Origin: Plicaturopsis crispa FD-325 SS-3
Lineage: Eukaryota; Basidiomycota; Agaricomycetes; Amylocorticiales; Amylocorticiaceae
Direction: 5' to 3'
DNA: 64,000 nt
NCBI GenBank assembly: GCA_000827205.1
Contig: KN832561.1
Location: 476,153-540,152 of the forward strand
A program made the translations under genes and the position numbers. Below, in pieces: positions 1,910-63,627 of the stretch (positions are counted from its first letter, which is position 1; every line of letters starts with the position of its first letter). The notes below the pieces were generated by a model. It had not been told where the DNA came from and searched no databases. It saw only the letters and a list, made by a program, of their open reading frames with translations.

Positions 1910-3809
1910 ATGGCAGAACTAGACATCGTCGTGGCGACTCTGCAAGCCGACGTCTCCGAGAAAGACCGCGAACTGGCCGACGACACCAAGTCGGCTGTCA
2001 CAGTTGCGGTCGAATCCGAGGAATCTGATTTTCCCGACGGAGGCCTCAGAGCGTGGCTCGTTGTTTTCGGAGTGAGTTAACCTTCCAGTACTTCGCACGC
2101 CGCCTACTGACCGCTTATCTCCACTCTCCACTCAGACCGTCTGCACCAATATTGCCACCTTCGGCTACGCGAATTCATGGGGAACTTTCCAATCGTACTA
2201 TGAGCAAACGATCCTTCAAGATTCCTCTCCATCTGACATGTACGCCACCATATAAACAAAGTGCCGTCCCTCAGAATTAATCCATGAACCAAACTCTAGT
2301 GCATGGATTGGATCTCTCCAGGTGAGCCACAGACCTCGGTTCGGCGTATACTTTATTGCTGAACAGAGTCAATTGAAACGTCACAGTATGCACTTGTCTT
2401 CCTGCCGACCGTCTTCGTCGGTCGAATGTTCGATATTGGATACTTCAAAATACCGATCTTCTTGGCGAGCGTCATCCTAGTCGTGGCGACTTTCCTTGTC
2501 GCAGAATGCACGCAATACTGGCAATTCCTGCTTTGCCAAGGCATCGTTACGGGGGTACGTCTGCTCAAAGCTTTCCATGGCATAGATTATTAAGTGGGTC
2601 AATTTCTTATAGCTCGCTAGCGGTACCGTTTTTGGACCGTCGCTGGCGGTCATCTCTCACTGGTTCAAACGAAGACGGGGAGTCGCTTTGGGAGTGTCGG
2701 CCATTGGATCTTCTATAGGCGGCACGGTCATTCCGATCATGGCTAACAAGTTAATCAAGCAAGTAGGGTATGTACATTGATGATACCCACGTCTTAAGGT
2801 ATTTGACCAGTATTTTGCAGTTTCCCGTGGACGATGCGGTATATAGGGTTTCTGCTCATCGCTACTCTGGGTGCGGCAAATCTAGTAAGATCGTCGTTCT
2901 CCACGCTCTCCGTAGCTGTATCGCTCTAAACATATTCTATCATCAGGCACTGAAACGACGGCTTCCTCCCGTCAGAGCAGAAGGCGGATTTTTCAACGTT
3001 GCGGTGTTCAAATCAGCCCCGTTCACCGTATATTGCCTATCGACGTTCTGCACCTTCCTTGGTCTCTACACAAGTACGGGCCCACATTCGCCTCCAATGC
3101 GTCGACGAGCTAACGCTGCCCGCCCATATAGCGCTGATTTACATGAATGCGGACGCTCTTTTCGTTGGAATATCATCGGATTACTCGTTCTATCTTATTT
3201 CAATAGCAAATGCCAGCTCTGCACTCGGCCGTATAGCTGCAGGATTTCTCTCTGACAAAATTGGTGCGTACAAGTTGATGTACTGCAATGTTTTCTGGAC
3301 GCTCGGACTGAGAACCATATAGGCCCCGTAAATGTCATGGCCCCCTTCACCGTGATTGCTGGCATCTTAACAATCATCTGGCCTCATGCCACAAGCGTCG
3401 CGTCGTTAACCATTATTGCTGTTCTCTATGGGTAAGTGTTGTGCTTCATCCCCGTTTACTCCTTGCTGAACGTGTTTGTGCAGCCTTTCATCTGGAGCAT
3501 ACGTCTCTCTACTGGTAGCACCTGTTATTGCACTGGGTGATACGTCGGACGTCGGCAGGCGTCTAGGCATGGCAATGACTTTCTTGGCTGCTGGCGCTAT
3601 CACGGGACCTCCAATATCTGGTGCAATCAACTCTGCGACTGGAGGGTTCAAAGCAGTAGGCATCTACGCAGGTGTGCTTTGTTTTCAATCCCTTGCTTGT
3701 TCGTAGTGATTCTCATGATATACCTTCAGGTGTTGTTGTATTCGTAGCTGTTGGGCTAATGTGGCTTTGTCGTTATCTGGTCTTGCGTCGGTTCTGGGGA
3801 AAATTCTAG
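1910..3809 (+). CDS. MFS transporter, monocarboxylate-transporter (MCT/MCH)-like
   Basis: Membrane carrier of the major facilitator superfamily. The cytosolic N-terminus leads into DFPDGGLRAWLVVFG, a signature of fungal MCT-like permeases. Eleven exons: 1910-2071, 2136-2239, 2300-2321, 2387-2554, 2613-2767, 2821-2884, 2947-3073, 3132-3263, 3323-3431, 3484-3671, 3730-3809. Together they encode 436 aa, normal for the family, with about 12 hydrophobic segments. The internal loop motif GVALGVSAIGSSIGG matches the MCT central region. All ten introns are GT-AG and keep frame. Substrate cannot be read from sequence; a monocarboxylate or related small acid is only a family-level guess. It stands alone between eIF4A and fibrillarin with no enzyme genes beside it, so no pathway is suggested. 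Confidence 0.9.
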
Positions 3810-4183: not shown

Positions 4184-5463
4184 ATGGCTTTCGGTGCGCA
4201 TAAGCTGCCACTAATTTGCCCAATTTTCGCCGTCTAGATTGCTTACAAAATCTCTTTGTTCACTACAGGCGCACCTGGAGGACGCGGAGGATTCGGCGGC
4301 GGCGACCGTGGCGGTTTCCGTGGCGGACGTGGAGGAGGCGATAGGGGACGCGGTGCACCAAGAGGTGGAAGAGGTGGACGAGGTAATTCGTACGTGTGAC
4401 CGCGCTGCGTACTAATAATCTTTGTTCACGCAGGCGGCGGCGTTCGAGGCGGAGGCATACAATCGAGAGGTCGCGGCGGCGATCGTGGCCGTGGTGGAGG
4501 CCGAGGTGGTGACCGTGGACGGGGTGGTGCTCGCGGAGGACGCGGCGGTCGGGGAGGCGCACGGGGTGGCTCGAACACCGTCCTCGAACCCCATAGGCAC
4601 CCGGGTGTGTTCATTGCAAAAGGCAAGGAACACATGCTGGTGACAAAAAATCTCGTCCCAGGCGAGTCTGTGTACGGCGAAAAGCGGATATCGGTAGAGG
4701 GTGGCGTGGATGGGACAAAGGTGGAATACCGAGTGTGGAATCCCTTCCGTAGCAAACTTGCTGCCGGTGTGTTGGGCGGTATGGATGACATCTACATCAA
4801 GCCGGGCTCGAAAGTGCTGTATCTTGGTGCTGCCAGTGGAACAAGTGTCAGCCATGTTGCAGACATTGTTGGACCGGTACGTTCTTTTTTTCGGTTCACT
4901 CATTCCAAGCGCTCACCCTGACCACAATTTTGCAAACAGGAAGGAATTGTATACGCTGTCGAGTTTTCGCCTCGCTCTGGACGTGACCTAATCAACATGG
5001 CAAAGAAACGGACAAATGTCATCCGTACGTGCTTCAAAAATTAGATTCATTCCGGCCCTTGTTTACATTTGCCTCTAGCCATCGTCGAGGATGCTCGTCT
5101 CCCGAACAAATATCGCATGCTTCTATCATCCGTTGATGTTATCTTCGCCGACGTTGCTCAACCCGATCAAGCCCGTATCGTCATCCACAATGCGGAGAGT
5201 TTCCTCAAGGACGGTGGCCACGCCATCATCTCCATCAAAGCCAGCTGTATCGATTCGACTGCTGTACCCGAAACTGTCTTTGCGGCTGAGATCCAGCAGC
5301 TGAAGAAGGGCCTGTTCAAACCTATTGAGCAGGTTACACTGGAACCCTACGAACGTGATCACGCTATGGTCTCCGGTACGTTTTTCTATGGCTGACCTCA
5401 GTCGACTCCAACTAATCATGCTATCATCTAGCCGTTTATCAACGGCACGTCAGTCACAACTAG
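4184..5463 (+). CDS. NOP1: fibrillarin, box C/D snoRNA-guided rRNA 2'-O-methyltransferase
   Basis: Nucleolar methyltransferase subunit of box C/D snoRNPs. Exons: 4184-4193, 4269-4382, 4434-4876, 4940-5024, 5079-5375, 5432-5463; 326 aa, the usual length. Residues about 5-85 are a glycine-arginine-rich (GAR) domain with repeated RGG and GGRGG. The SAM-dependent methyltransferase domain follows, with [48 protein letters not shown] (SAM-binding loop) and [12 protein letters not shown]. The ATG at 4184 is followed by a 10-nt coding first exon; the GAR domain is split across exons 2 and 3. The protein ends in [10 protein letters not shown]. Identification is firm. Confidence 0.97.
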
Positions 5464-5842
5464 CGATGACTTGTATCATCTGTCATCTTGTTTTCCTGTC
5501 CTACGTTCTATGTTTTTGATCATCTGTTTATATGGTTTGGACCAGTCGTGTATTGCTTACCCTAGGCGCCGTAAAAAAGTACTCCATGATTTTCTCACTA
5601 TGGCTAAATATACTGCGATTGTAATGATTTTCGCGGACAGCTGTTTGGAAAACTTTGTCGGGGAAATGCAGGGGAATTTCAGTGACGGTGGCCGACGCGA
5701 CGTGGCAGATGATGTGGCTGCTGCGGTACCTTGCGCGCTGTACATACGCCTGCTTTTGCACAACTTCACCGCAAAGCCCTTCAGCAGCTAGCACTCTGCC
5801 CTCGGGCAAGAAAAAACCACATACTCAGGTAGCTGGGCGCTA
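5464..5842. other. intergenic spacer, NOP1 to PMT2
   Basis: About 380 bp between two plus-strand genes. I see no gene in it and no strong regulatory motif. Confidence 0.5.
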
Positions 5843-8839
5843 ATGAGTCGGTCGGATATATCCTTGGAATTTGGCCAGCCGTCACGCGCTTCTTCTGACT
5901 TCGAAGATATACCTTACCCAACAACCAACTGGTCCAATACGCCTCGCCACGAAGAAGAGCTCCCGCTGCACTATATGTCCGAAGACAAAGCTCGTAGGCG
6001 CGTGCCAAGAGGCCCCGCTGCCACGAGCGACTATCTGGGCAACGGCAGCGAGAAGATCGACGAATATGACGATGAAGGCAAGGACGTGTACGCGAAGGTG
6101 AGGCCGCCCAAGGGCCGTGTTGGCAGCGGGCGTGCCGTACAAGCACCCCATCCTCCTCCTACATCCATAGTGCGTATTCTGTTTCGTGCTTGGAGATTTA
6201 ACGAAGCTAGCGCGTTGACATGTCACATTGTAGAGAGAATTTTTGCAACAGAACCTCGAACACATCCCGCCCGTCATATATACCCTCCTCTCATGCTGGA
6301 CGCGTTTCCACAAAATTGGCAAGGCCAACGTCGTCGTCTGGGACGAGGCTCACTTCGGGAAGTTTGGTTCTCATTATCTGAAGCGCGAATTCTACTTCGA
6401 CGTCCACCCACCTCTTGGCAAGATGCTCGTCGGTCTAGCAGGTCTGCTGTCCGGCTACGACGGGTCATTCGAATTCAAAAGCGGTGATCCCTATCCTGAG
6501 CATGTCCCGTACGTGGCGATGCGGGTCATGATGGCGACGTTTGGCGTGGCCATGGTGCCTTTGGGTTGGTATACGGCGGTGGAGTTGGGCATGAGTCTGT
6601 GGGCCTGCCATCTCGTTGCTCTCATGGTCCTTCTTGGTAAGTCAATTCTACTCCTTTGCTCACAAGCTGCTCATAAAAATGATTTGTAGACATAGCATGG
6701 TTATGCATATCGCGATTCATCCTCCTAGACTCCATGCTCCTGTTCTTCACATTCACAACGGTCTTTACTCTTACCAAATTCCACAACCAACAATACCAGT
6801 GCGTTGGTCCCTATATGTGAATCCTGCCCAGACTGAGTACATCCTCTAGATCATTTGCGGTCGACTGGTGGTTATGGCTTGCCATGACAGGCGTGTCTAT
6901 CGGCTGCGTAATAAGGTATGTATTCTGCAGTTCAACACACTCGTCGGCTGTCTGAATAACAGAATCTTAGCGTGAAATGGGTCGGCTTCTTCGTCACGGC
7001 TTTGGTTGGTTTATACACCATCGAAGATTTATGGGACAAATTCGGCGACCTCAAGATGTCTGTGGTGGGTCGAACGCGCTGACCCGTGTCGATATTCGGT
7101 TGACATTATTCATGGATATCAGCGCGACCAACTACGGCATTGGATTGCACGTATAGCATGCCTCATTATCCTCCCCATCGCCGTCTACATGTTCTCGTTC
7201 AAGATGCACTTCTTGGTTTTGAACCATTCTGGTCCTGGTGATGCGCAGATGAGCTCCTTGTTCCAGGCCAATCTTGTCGGAAATGACTTTGCGCAGAATC
7301 CCCTTGGTACGCAAACAGGACCCTTGTGAATCCATGAGTACTAAGCACCTTTTCACAGAGGTCGCTTATGGCTCGAAAGTCACGCTCAAGAACATGGGCT
7401 GGGGTGGCGGGCTCCTCCATTCCCATATTCAAACGTATCCGGCCGGCTCGGGCCAACAGCAAGTCACTTGCTACCACTACAAGGACGAAAACAACGAGTG
7501 GATCGTTACTCCACGGTGGGATGAGCCGGACTACAACCCGAACGATCCCATCCGTTTCCTCGTGCACGGCGATATCATTCGGCTGGTCCACGCTTCTACC
7601 ACCCGGAACTTGCACTCTCACCCCATCGTTGCGCCTGTCTCGAAGCTCAACAACGAAGTCTCATGCTACGGCAACGCAACAATCGGAGACAACCAGGACT
7701 ACTGGCAAGTGGAAGTCGTTGACGATGTTCGGGAAGGCCACATCAAGAAGATACAGTCGTTAACAACGCGTATTCGATTCCGGCACACTCATTCAGGATG
7801 CTACCTCCGCGCTGCCAACGCCGTTTTGCCGCAGTGGGGATTCAAGCAGATCGAAGTAAGCTGTGACAAGGAGAATAACCCAGACGACATACACACGTAC
7901 TGGAACGTAGAAAGCCACTGGAACGATCGACGTACGTGCTAATTTCTCACTTCGTATACCGTCTGGCTCATTTAATGCGTCTCAGTTCCATCCGGTGACA
8001 TGAAGTTCTATCGTTCGCCTTTCTTCCGTGACTTCTGGCACCTCAATGTGGCTATGCTGACATCCAACAACGCTCTCATACCGGATCCCGATAAAGAAGA
8101 TATCCTCGCCTCTAAGCCTACGGATTGGCCATGGCTTCATCTTGGTCTGCGCATGTGTGGATGGGGCGACGGGCAAACGAAATATTACCTGCTTGGGACG
8201 CCCATCATCTGGTGGGCGGGCACCAGTAGTTTGATCGCCTCTGTCGTGCTGGTGGGCTTCTATCTGTTGCGTATGCAGCGGAAGTATGTTGATATGGACG
8301 CTCGTGAGTGGTTTCTATCGTGTCTCGATATGGTGTTCTGATTCTCCGTAGGCGAGTGGGACCATTTCCTCTACGTTGGAAAAATCGCCTTCCTTGGCTG
8401 GGCTTTACATTACTGTGAGTTACGCAATAGTTCCATTGGGATCGACTGACATCCGCTACAGTCCCGTTCTTCATTATGGGTCGTGTCACATACGTCCACC
8501 ACTACGTGCGTAGTCCGCCTGCTTATCCACTAGCGCGTATGCTCACCCATCTGCCATAGTTGCCAACTCTTTACTTCTCAGTATTGATGACTGCCCACCT
8601 CCTCGACCACTTCATATTCTCCTCCCGCCGCTTTTCGGAGCGGAACAAAAGGATTGCGTTCGGCGTTTGCGCTTTCTTGATAATCAGCACATTCTGGTGG
8701 TTCAGAGGCCTCGCATTTGGAATCGACGGACCTATCAATGACCATTGGGGTCTCCAGTGGCGCGATGTACGTTGTACATTTTTTGGGTTTCTTCATTCTC
8801 ACTGACGATGATTTGCAGAGCTGGAATATCTATAATTGA
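5843..8839 (+). CDS. PMT2: dolichyl-phosphate-mannose--protein O-mannosyltransferase, PMT2 subfamily (GT39)
   Basis: ER-membrane enzyme that transfers mannose from dolichyl-phosphate-mannose to Ser/Thr of secretory proteins, normally as a PMT1/PMT2-type heterodimer. Twelve exons: 5843-6169, 6234-6636, 6690-6798, 6850-6915, 6971-7064, 7123-7306, 7359-7931, 7986-8303, 8352-8414, 8462-8505, 8560-8766, 8819-8839; 802 aa. A cytosolic N-terminus of about 110 aa is followed by the catalytic loop VVWDEAHFGKFGSHYLKRE (acidic DE near residue 146), several membrane spans, a MIR-type luminal region (LLHSHIQTYPAGSGQQQVT, NLHSHPIVAPVSKLNNEVS), and the C-terminal membrane block with CGWGDGQTKYYLLGTP and RVTYVHHYLP. 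Line-by-line similarity to yeast Pmt2 is strong, hence the subfamily call. The start of exon 2 could instead be 19 nt downstream (6253) at a second in-phase acceptor. Confidence 0.95.
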
Positions 8840-44568: not shown

Positions 44569-44658
44569 GAATTAACTCATGAAAGTGGCATAACTCATGA
44601 AACTGGCATAACTCACAAAACTAGCATAAGTCACAAAACAGGCATAACTCACGAAACT
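44569..44658 (+). repeat. tandem array of five 18-bp units
   Basis: Units at 44569-44586, 44587-44604, 44605-44622, 44623-44640 and 44641-44658, consensus GGCATAACTCAYRAAACT. The first and fourth copies are more diverged. A sixth unit (GGCATAACTCACGCGAC) appears at 45568 on the far side of the inserted element, and another at 45739. The array is otherwise non-coding. Confidence 0.85.
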
Positions 44659-44659
44659 G

Positions 44660-45566
44660 TGTCGGAAATTTATTTTCTGCCTGATCAGGCAGGCAGTCTG
44701 GTAAGGCCGCATCAGGCATATGCGACCGCACAGATCAGGCCCTATCAGGCCTTGTCAGGCTACTATCAGGCATGGTCTGGAATGATCAGAGAGGCAGTAC
44801 GGCGGAATCGAGAGACCCCTGCAATTGACCGAAGGACACGTTTGCACTCGATAACTGAATCAGACTTGGACATATGTATGTATCGAGAACACATTATGAA
44901 GTACATGATCAATTTCTAGCTCGTAAAAAAATGTCGCCGTCGACTGTATCGTTGAGATAATGGACTGTGGCTTCAAAGAGTCAAAGGCCGGAATCATATG
45001 AACCCCTCGATTCAGAAACCGTAACATGACGAAGCGTGATAGCGAGCTCGTCGTATACCACGAGACGCTCGTCGAGGTGCGAGGCAGAGCCACGAGTAAG
45101 AACGCTATATATCCTTGTTAACACAAGCTTAAAACATGACCGCATTACCCAGCGGGCAACTGCGCGTGTGTCGTCTTGCTTACTAAGCCCTCCTCCAGTA
45201 GGCTCGAGTTCGAATCCCGGACTGCGCCAGCACTTTAATTTCAGAACCGCAGTCAGCTCATTTAAGCAAATTGTAAACGAGTCAGTAAGAGTTACAAAAC
45301 AATATAAGTAAACGCGACTAGCATAGTACAATCCAAGTCAGAATGTGAAGCCGCGAAAGCGGCGAACAGCTTTTATTCGTCCTTTCACCCTTGTCTGATC
45401 GTGGCGAATCGTTACTGTAAGGCCTGACCAGACCCATAAGCCTGATCAGGTCCGTCAGGCCTGATAGTGCAAGATCTACTATTATCCTAGCACATAACTT
45501 GGAAAAAACCTGACCGCCTGATCAGCGCATATCAGTCCCGATTTGCTAACAAATATTTTTCCGACA
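44660..45566. mobile_element. 907-bp non-autonomous DNA transposon-like element with terminal inverted repeats
   Basis: The left end reads TGTCGGAAATTTATTT and the right end, on the opposite strand, TGTCGGAAAAATATTT: 16-bp inverted ends with two differences. TG flanks both sides (44658-44659 and 45567-45568), consistent with a 2-bp target duplication. Just inside each end lie clusters of TCAGGC in mirrored orientation (about 44680-44780, and as GCCTGA at about 45418-45525). These look like subterminal transposase-binding sites. No transposase frame is present, so it must be mobilised in trans if at all. The superfamily is not clear to me; subterminal repeats of this kind occur in several cut-and-paste families. 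A tRNA B-box-like string (GTTCGAATCCCGG) lies inside near 45210. Confidence 0.75.
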
Positions 45567-45567
45567 T

Positions 45568-45797
45568 GGCATAACTCACGCGACGTCGGTACCCAGGTAT
45601 ACCGTTCCACTCTGGCCACCATTATCTCAAAACGCTCAATAACCATCATTCATTCCACCCCCCGCGACGGGGGGCGGAATTCATCTCGAAATGGACCACA
45701 AATTATGGCAAGCAAAACTTATACAAACTCCGGAAACTGGCATAACTCACGCGACATTGATCCCCAGGTACGCAAATGAACCGTTCCACTGTGGCCT
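45568..45797 (+). repeat. two direct copies of a longer repeat unit
   Basis: Copies at 45568-45617 and 45738-45797 share GGCATAACTCACGCGAC, then about 10 bp, AGGTA, a short variable spacer, and CCGTTCCACTSTGGCC. They join the 18-bp array motif and the CACTSTGGCC motif into one larger unit, showing that both belong to the same ancestral repeat. Confidence 0.7.
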
Positions 45798-46784
45798 TCA
45801 CACACTCAAAATTGGCTTAATTTCTGTTCTTAATATTAGGTACGCGATTTAAGCCAAGAGGCGGGCGTTCGAGCCTGTTTTAGAGTGTTTTTACTGACGT
45901 GCATTTTTTTCGCAGTTTAACCACTATTATGGAGGCACCGCCTCCATTCTTGGTTATCTTATGACAGAAATAGGCTAGATATGAGGCACCAGTGACGGCT
46001 AGGACGAAAGAATGCGGCCGGGATCGTGTATTGAACGAGAGCAAAAGAGAAAGACAAAGGAACGCCGTGCTACGTGGACGCGCGTACTATTGACGACTAT
46101 TTGGCAGAAGTCCGAAGTCCGATCCGAAACTCGCGAACGCGCCCTTTCCGAGGACGCGACGCACACACAAATTCCAACATCTTATTTTTGCCGCCCTTGC
46201 TCCTTGTCCTCTGCTTGCACGACGAGGACGTGATGACCTTGCCGCTGCACTACTGGCTTGTGTCGTCGGGGGATTCCCTTTCTTTTCTTTGCTGCGCGCG
46301 TCATTCCTGTCACTCGACACGGAAGAAACACGCAGCAAATGAAGCCAGGGTCTATTCTCTTATCACTTCCCCCTCCTTCGATGCATTCAAGTGTCGGCCA
46401 CATCATCAACCGGAGTCTGCAGTGCCATCTCGATACCCCGGGCTCGACGGCCACTAGTGAACGGCTCTTGCGTGTCACCGAGGGCGCCTCCCTCAGACTG
46501 CTTACCGTACACACACGCTGAGCATTCGTCCTAGTGGATACGCCATGAGTCTCTGGCTGTGCAGCTCCAAGTAGCTCGGTGCTCAGGTTGTGTCCCATCG
46601 GGGTCTGTGTTTAGTACTCAGCCTTTATTATGGTTGCACATGCTGTCCTATCTTCCTGGTCAATGAATATTATTGTACCGAATGATTCTTTGGTGAAAGC
46701 ACCATGCAAAAGATGGCAGGGGCCACGGTGAGGTATATAAGCACGAAGATGCCAAGATGCACGTCAATGTTGCTCTGAGACAGG
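45798..46784. other. intergenic stretch between repeat block and M20 gene
   Basis: About 990 bp. It contains tRNA-like fragments without a full fold and several short overlapping frames. I see no gene. It includes the 3' flank of the M20 gene. Confidence 0.4.
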
Positions 46785-62664: not shown

Positions 62665-63420
62665 NNNNNNNNNNNNNNNNNNNNNNNNNNNNNNNNNNNN
62701 NNNNNNNNNNNNNNNNNNNNNNNNNNNNNNNNNNNNNNNNNNNNNNNNNNNNNNNNNNNNNNNNNNNNNNNNNNNNNNNNNNNNNNNNNNNNNNNNNNNN
62801 NNNNNNNNNNNNNNNNNNNNNNNNNNNNNNNNNNNNNNNNNNNNNNNNNNNNNNNNNNNNNNNNNNNNNNNNNNNNNNNNNNNNNNNNNNNNNNNNNNNN
62901 NNNNNNNNNNNNNNNNNNNNNNNNNNNNNNNNNNNNNNNNNNNNNNNNNNNNNNNNNNNNNNNNNNNNNNNNNNNNNNNNNNNNNNNNNNNNNNNNNNNN
63001 NNNNNNNNNNNNNNNNNNNNNNNNNNNNNNNNNNNNNNNNNNNNNNNNNNNNNNNNNNNNNNNNNNNNNNNNNNNNNNNNNNNNNNNNNNNNNNNNNNNN
63101 NNNNNNNNNNNNNNNNNNNNNNNNNNNNNNNNNNNNNNNNNNNNNNNNNNNNNNNNNNNNNNNNNNNNNNNNNNNNNNNNNNNNNNNNNNNNNNNNNNNN
63201 NNNNNNNNNNNNNNNNNNNNNNNNNNNNNNNNNNNNNNNNNNNNNNNNNNNNNNNNNNNNNNNNNNNNNNNNNNNNNNNNNNNNNNNNNNNNNNNNNNNN
63301 NNNNNNNNNNNNNNNNNNNNNNNNNNNNNNNNNNNNNNNNNNNNNNNNNNNNNNNNNNNNNNNNNNNNNNNNNNNNNNNNNNNNNNNNNNNNNNNNNNNN
63401 NNNNNNNNNNNNNNNNNNNN
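62665..63420. other. assembly gap (756 N)
   Basis: Unsequenced run of N; a further single N is at 63465. Sequence on both sides is repetitive, so the gap probably reflects a collapsed tandem array. Frames translated through it have no meaning. Confidence 0.95.
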
Positions 63421-63627
63421 GTGTCCGAGTCGCTCGTTGTGGGCATCCTAGTGTCCTGCGCGCTNCGGGACACTGCGACTGCGAAGCGCAGGAGCGAGCG
63501 CAGGAGCGGCGCATCGACGGTGACGGGCGCCCTGCGGCTCCTGGTGGGTGGGTCTACGCGCGCGAAGGATGCGTCGTGCTCCTCGAGGGCCCGTCGAGTC
63601 TGTGACATGTGTATAACGGCTGTGCCT

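Follow-up and report, generated by a model that had tools for sequence, protein, structure and literature searches.

What is the segment that splits an 18-bp tandem array in two, and how did it come to lie there? In the window (the whole stretch of DNA that was analysed, 64,000 nucleotides, in G000:C8), a 907-bp segment at 44660–45566 interrupts the array, with TG on both sides. The original prediction took this segment, with its inverted ends, for a transposon insertion within the array, and a search of the assembled genome (33,202,659 bases, 33.2 Mb, in 49 contigs) bears it out. We conclude that the insert is very probably a shortened, internally deleted and non-autonomous copy of a PlavakaA-type DNA transposon, a fungal cut-and-paste element, flanked by a 2-bp target duplication, a placement based on its ends and duplication and not on a tree.

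Borders of the insert and the empty site

The features that define the locus are as follows.

44573–44659, plus strand: 18-bp tandem array, 4.8 copies (Tandem Repeats Finder), split by the insert
44658–44659, no strand: left TG of the 2-bp target duplication, from the sequence
44660–45566, no strand: probable PlavakaA-type non-autonomous transposon copy, 907 bp, the sole full copy in the assembly
44660–44675, no strand: terminal inverted repeat, left arm (TGTCGGAAA...), 16 nt
45551–45566, no strand: terminal inverted repeat, right arm (...TTTCCGACA), 16 nt
45567–45568, no strand: right TG of the 2-bp target duplication, from the sequence
45567–45599, plus strand: array unit and the sequence after it, right of the insert, with an 88% match at 45738–45770
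45733–45770, plus strand: paralogous stretch that retains the uninterrupted junction

To the left of the insert the array consists of four full units and one partial unit, and not of the five units ending at 44658 that had been proposed. Its interruption stands; the last full unit ends at 44657, and the TG pairs lie at 44658–44659 and 45567–45568. The insert begins TGTCGGAAA and finishes TTTCCGACA; these inverted ends are perfect over 9 bp, with 88% complementarity between the 16-nt arms and agreement with the opposite end at 21 of the first 30 positions. The genome contains 11 matches to TGGCATAACTCACG with at most one mismatch, five of them at the array locus and six scattered (the reversed control gave 8), and the array is a property of this locus.

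Removal of the insert together with one TG yields GAAACTGGCATAACTC, the exact empty-site junction that had been foreseen. The window has two uninterrupted copies of this string: one lies among the array units, at 44599, and the other, at 45733, belongs to the paralogous stretch, where agreement with the predicted junction extends over 23 bases. The allele without the insert is predicted to read ...CACGAAACTGGCATAACTCACGCGAC...; no such allele was seen in the one assembly searched, in which the left flank matches the insert locus only. The locus preserves a single insertion event cleanly, with array units and a paralogous stretch from which the empty site can be predicted base by base, and it shows that a repeat array can serve to define the ends of a transposon present in one copy.

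The same junction bears on the idea that the segment is original spacer between array units, its flanking TG being coincidental. A single 2-bp match has a 1 in 16 chance of arising in this way, but the inverted ends sit exactly at the predicted borders, the uninterrupted junction is present at two other places, and elements elsewhere share the ends of the insert and have 2-bp duplications of their own; we give this explanation practically no credence. Nor do the 907 bp belong to the surrounding repeat as one of its regular components, as flank and element each occur once as a whole.

Beside the array lies a larger, degenerate repeat whose copies are spaced 171–179 bp apart (45567–45632 and 45738–45811), which holds the second uninterrupted junction. 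Towards the end of the window, a run of N at about 62665–63430 makes the G+C profile look AT-rich; an AT-rich stretch at 62.5–63.5 kb was rejected, as the low G+C there is this run of N.

Related elements and the PlavakaA lineage

A genome search with the insert returned one full match and four partial matches, the latter marking the ends and inside of two elements of about 7 kb, on C2 and C15. A search with a left-end pattern led to two further elements, on C18 and C2. With the insert, these are the elements that are resolved at both ends.

Window insert, 907 bp: duplication TG
C2 long element (L007), about 7 kb: duplication CG
C15 element, about 7 kb: duplication AC
C18 element, 820 bp: duplication CA
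Second C2 element, 9,413 bp (9.4 kb): duplication CT

All five have a perfect 2-bp duplication, a count confined to the elements resolved at both ends in a genome with 84 exon-wise matches to the Plavaka transposase (PF18759). The duplicated sequences are all different, extension to 3 bp was found in none of the five, and the ends are TGT..ACA in every case, of the TGTCRGAAA type. Four such dinucleotide matches beside ends set by the terminal repeats would arise by chance with a probability of about (1/16)^4. The four related elements independently confirm the 2-bp duplication, and with it both ends as originally defined; among the copies brought up by the proposed genome search, none had different end points or a duplication longer than 2 bp. 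Taken alone, the insert locus is also readable as a 909-bp insert without a duplication, and it is the 2-bp duplications of the other copies that settle the matter for the 2-bp reading.

In the 9.4-kb C2 element, the nearer end candidate (9/10) has no duplication, and the 10/10 end lies farther out, with CT. A sixth copy, found on C5 by protein search, has one clear end (TTTTTGCGACA); on the opposite side the strongest candidate end (9/10) has no matching dinucleotide, and the element is counted outside the five resolved ones. TGTCRGAAA-type ends were not found within the stretches examined for partial protein matches on C37 and C28, and a motif scan for the ends of other Plavaka matches in the genome gave scattered matches only.

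Passages of a 2025 paper, the source of the PlavakaA signature, assign 2-bp duplications and TGT..ACA termini to PlavakaA families, CATCA..TGATG termini and duplications of 2 or 3 bp to PlavakaB families, and CAC..GTG ends and a 3-bp duplication to EnSpm families (PMC12730594). They place Plavaka near EnSpm and PlavakaA in the CMCT clade (PMC12730594), and a passage elsewhere sets Plavaka within the CACTA/CMC/EnSpm group (PMC11075540). The insert and its relatives share with PlavakaA, as these passages describe it, TGT..ACA ends and 2-bp duplications of variable sequence, and one of the long relatives within this genome carries a Plavaka transposase (PF18759). The original prediction had called the 2-bp duplication uncommon and unlike the TA of Tc1/mariner. 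It is indeed not TA but, because a 2-bp duplication with TGT..ACA ends is the published PlavakaA signature in the passages cited (PMC12730594), it is characteristic of the lineage and no oddity. This lineage is already described, and the insert itself is ordinary once placed there; the published signature, for its part, gains support from the elements in this genome, which its Plavaka content suggests to be that of a basidiomycete. The insert differs from PlavakaA elements in that it is 907 bp long, single-copy and without a working transposase gene.

Membership of EnSpm/CACTA, PlavakaB or Tc1/mariner, which the placement of Plavaka near EnSpm might invite, is highly unlikely, given ends that are TGT..ACA and a duplication that is neither TA nor 3 bp. 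PlavakaB was rejected on ends of the TGTC[AG]GAAA type in place of CATCA..TGATG, EnSpm/CACTA on ends that are not CAC..GTG and a duplication that is not 3 bp, and Tc1/mariner on duplications of TG, CG, AC, CA and CT, never TA. The TG..CA ends would suit a solo LTR of a retrotransposon, as would the size of about 900 bp. However, LTR elements usually have duplications of 4–6 bp, and here the duplication is 2 bp in all five resolved copies; the related 7-kb element, moreover, has single inverted ends and a Plavaka transposase, and not two direct LTRs, which makes a solo LTR scarcely credible.

Transposase remnant, subterminal repeats and route of insertion

Three further features of the insert relate it to a PlavakaA-type transposition system.

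44679–44798, no strand: left subterminal GATCAGR/TCAGGC repeats
44908–45033, minus strand: remnant of the C-terminal end of a transposase gene, with a disrupted reading frame and a DNA identity of 78% with the long relatives
45394–45526, no strand: right subterminal GATCAGR/TCAGGC repeats

One exon of the 7-kb C2 element (L007) matches PF18759 with 57.1 bits (cut-off 26.3), and a second exon, with 21.2 bits, falls below that cut-off; CPRC is present and HLIPH lies in a further exon, in a comparison confined to these motifs. In the 9.4-kb element, PF18759 matches at C2:441176–442235, CPKC is present and there is no H(3-4)H at the corresponding stretch examined. The C15 element, with an interior of N, was compared over its visible part only. 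The insert has no intact transposase. Its positions 249–374 match the long relatives and hold, on the minus strand and in two frames, the last 42–45 codons or so of the gene, a remnant that tblastx against the 9.4-kb element also shows.

The transposase region of L007 contains two near-identical stretches (about 4950–5300 and 5500–5860) that are some 557 bp apart, with N between them, and look like an internal tandem duplication. Open frames opposite the transposase strand, at 2305–3695 (minus), are possibly a second gene of this element; two of these frames had no confident match in Pfam.

Over its two strands the insert has eight GATCAGR motifs, all of them within about 175 bp of an end; 500 shuffles gave 0.32 on average and at most 3. 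The C18 element has nine, all in its outer parts, against a shuffle mean of 0.27 (maximum 3). In the long elements GATCAGR is likewise found near the ends, and in L007 also at two internal places. By analogy with the subterminal repeats of other elements, the GATCAGR repeats are probably sites to which the transposase binds.

We propose that a Plavaka-type DDE transposase from a longer relative acted in trans on the insert. This enzyme would recognise the TGTCRGAAA ends and the subterminal GATCAGR repeats, excise the element and join it at a 2-bp staggered cut in one unit of the 18-bp array, whereupon gap repair would double two target bases, here TG. The sequences themselves show the ends, the 2-bp duplication in five copies, the homology to long elements (one of them with Plavaka transposase exons), the broken gene remnant and the subterminal repeats, whereas the chemistry of transposition, mobilisation in trans and the binding role of the repeats are inferred.

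The lack of an intact transposase and the single copy of the insert speak against taking its movement as a 907-bp unit for granted. Non-autonomous DNA transposons of the miniature or internally deleted kind (MITE-like) are short, with inverted ends, and retain the terminal parts of a longer relative, as the insert does. A difference is that no multiplied short family was found in the assembly, where the 907-bp insert and the 820-bp C18 element have one full copy each. As both are single-copy, loss of the interior in place after insertion has nearly the same likelihood as mobilisation in the short form. A full-length PlavakaA would then have been inserted and most of its interior lost afterwards, without the short element ever having been mobile, a course of events to which we give a substantial, although less than even, chance. 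Against this, the two short elements, although independent of each other, are alike in size, and each has preserved the ends, the subterminal repeats and the tRNA-like module described below, as might be expected if short forms able to be mobilised were selected for; neither this nor the single copy number is decisive.

A tRNA-like module in the elements

A box A/box B-like module of about 80 bp is common to the two short elements (the insert and the C18 copy) and to the long ones closely related to them (the 7-kb C2 element and the C15 element).

45142–45221, plus strand: tRNA-like box A/box B module (box-A-like 45145–45156, box-B-like 45207–45217)
L069, 1881–1959: module in a relative's stretch
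L007, 1836–1915, minus strand: module in a relative's stretch
L006, 1761–1805, minus strand: module in a relative's stretch
L071, 461–528, minus strand: module in a relative's stretch

We tentatively suggest, while regarding it as doubtful, that this module is an ancestral tRNA-derived sequence of about 80 bp that has kept a fixed place (box B 359–437 bp from one element end) while the surrounding sequence decayed; it may act as a promoter for Pol III or as a site bound by TFIIIC. A module of this kind would serve element transcription, escape from silencing or insulation and, if also present in other species, would raise the new question of how the elements are transcribed or insulated. The elements here differ from published PlavakaA in sharing it: tRNA, MITE and subterminal are terms absent from the main text of PMC12730594, and among passages of the literature on Plavaka together with tRNA we found none on such a module.

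A real tRNA or a tRNA-headed SINE was rejected at normal cut-offs, there being no recognised tRNA sequence or fold. Rfam gave no tRNA match on the module-bearing sequences, ARAGORN at its normal cut-off found no tRNA in the window and none in the four stretches with or without introns, and RNAalifold found no consensus pair in the module alignment. Relaxed ARAGORN cut-offs produced 10 and 29 low-scoring calls over the four stretches, none of them shared.

In each of six directed comparisons between the modules of the insert, the C18 element and the 7-kb C2 element, none of 300 shuffles reached the alignment score. The insert module can also be aligned with the C15 element, which is closely related to the 7-kb C2 one, over the visible part of the former. 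Measured from the same element end, box B lies at 359, 375, 433 and 437 bp, and at 394 bp in the 9.4-kb element. There both boxes are present, but the module aligns weakly, with scores that 17 to 78 of 300 shuffles attain, and two of the six comparisons with the other three modules aligned away from the module. A leave-one-out model missed this fifth module with default filters and, with filters off, placed it as the best of 14 matches in a 3-kb stretch (E 0.048); for the 9.4-kb element the module is no more than suggestive.

Among 42 sequences, the model built from four elements matched only these elements, and four of its five matches were to its own members; it had no match in the C5 stretch. 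Module patterns each had three matches genome-wide, all in elements (controls, 7 and 1); as they derive from the module sequences themselves, they show only that exact forms are not widely spread. A scan of the rest of the window on both strands with a loose box A/box B consensus gave 765 matches and is not discriminating. Within the elements, the module was the top match in the insert and shared the top score in L007, whereas in neither the 9.4-kb element nor the C18 copy did it come first.
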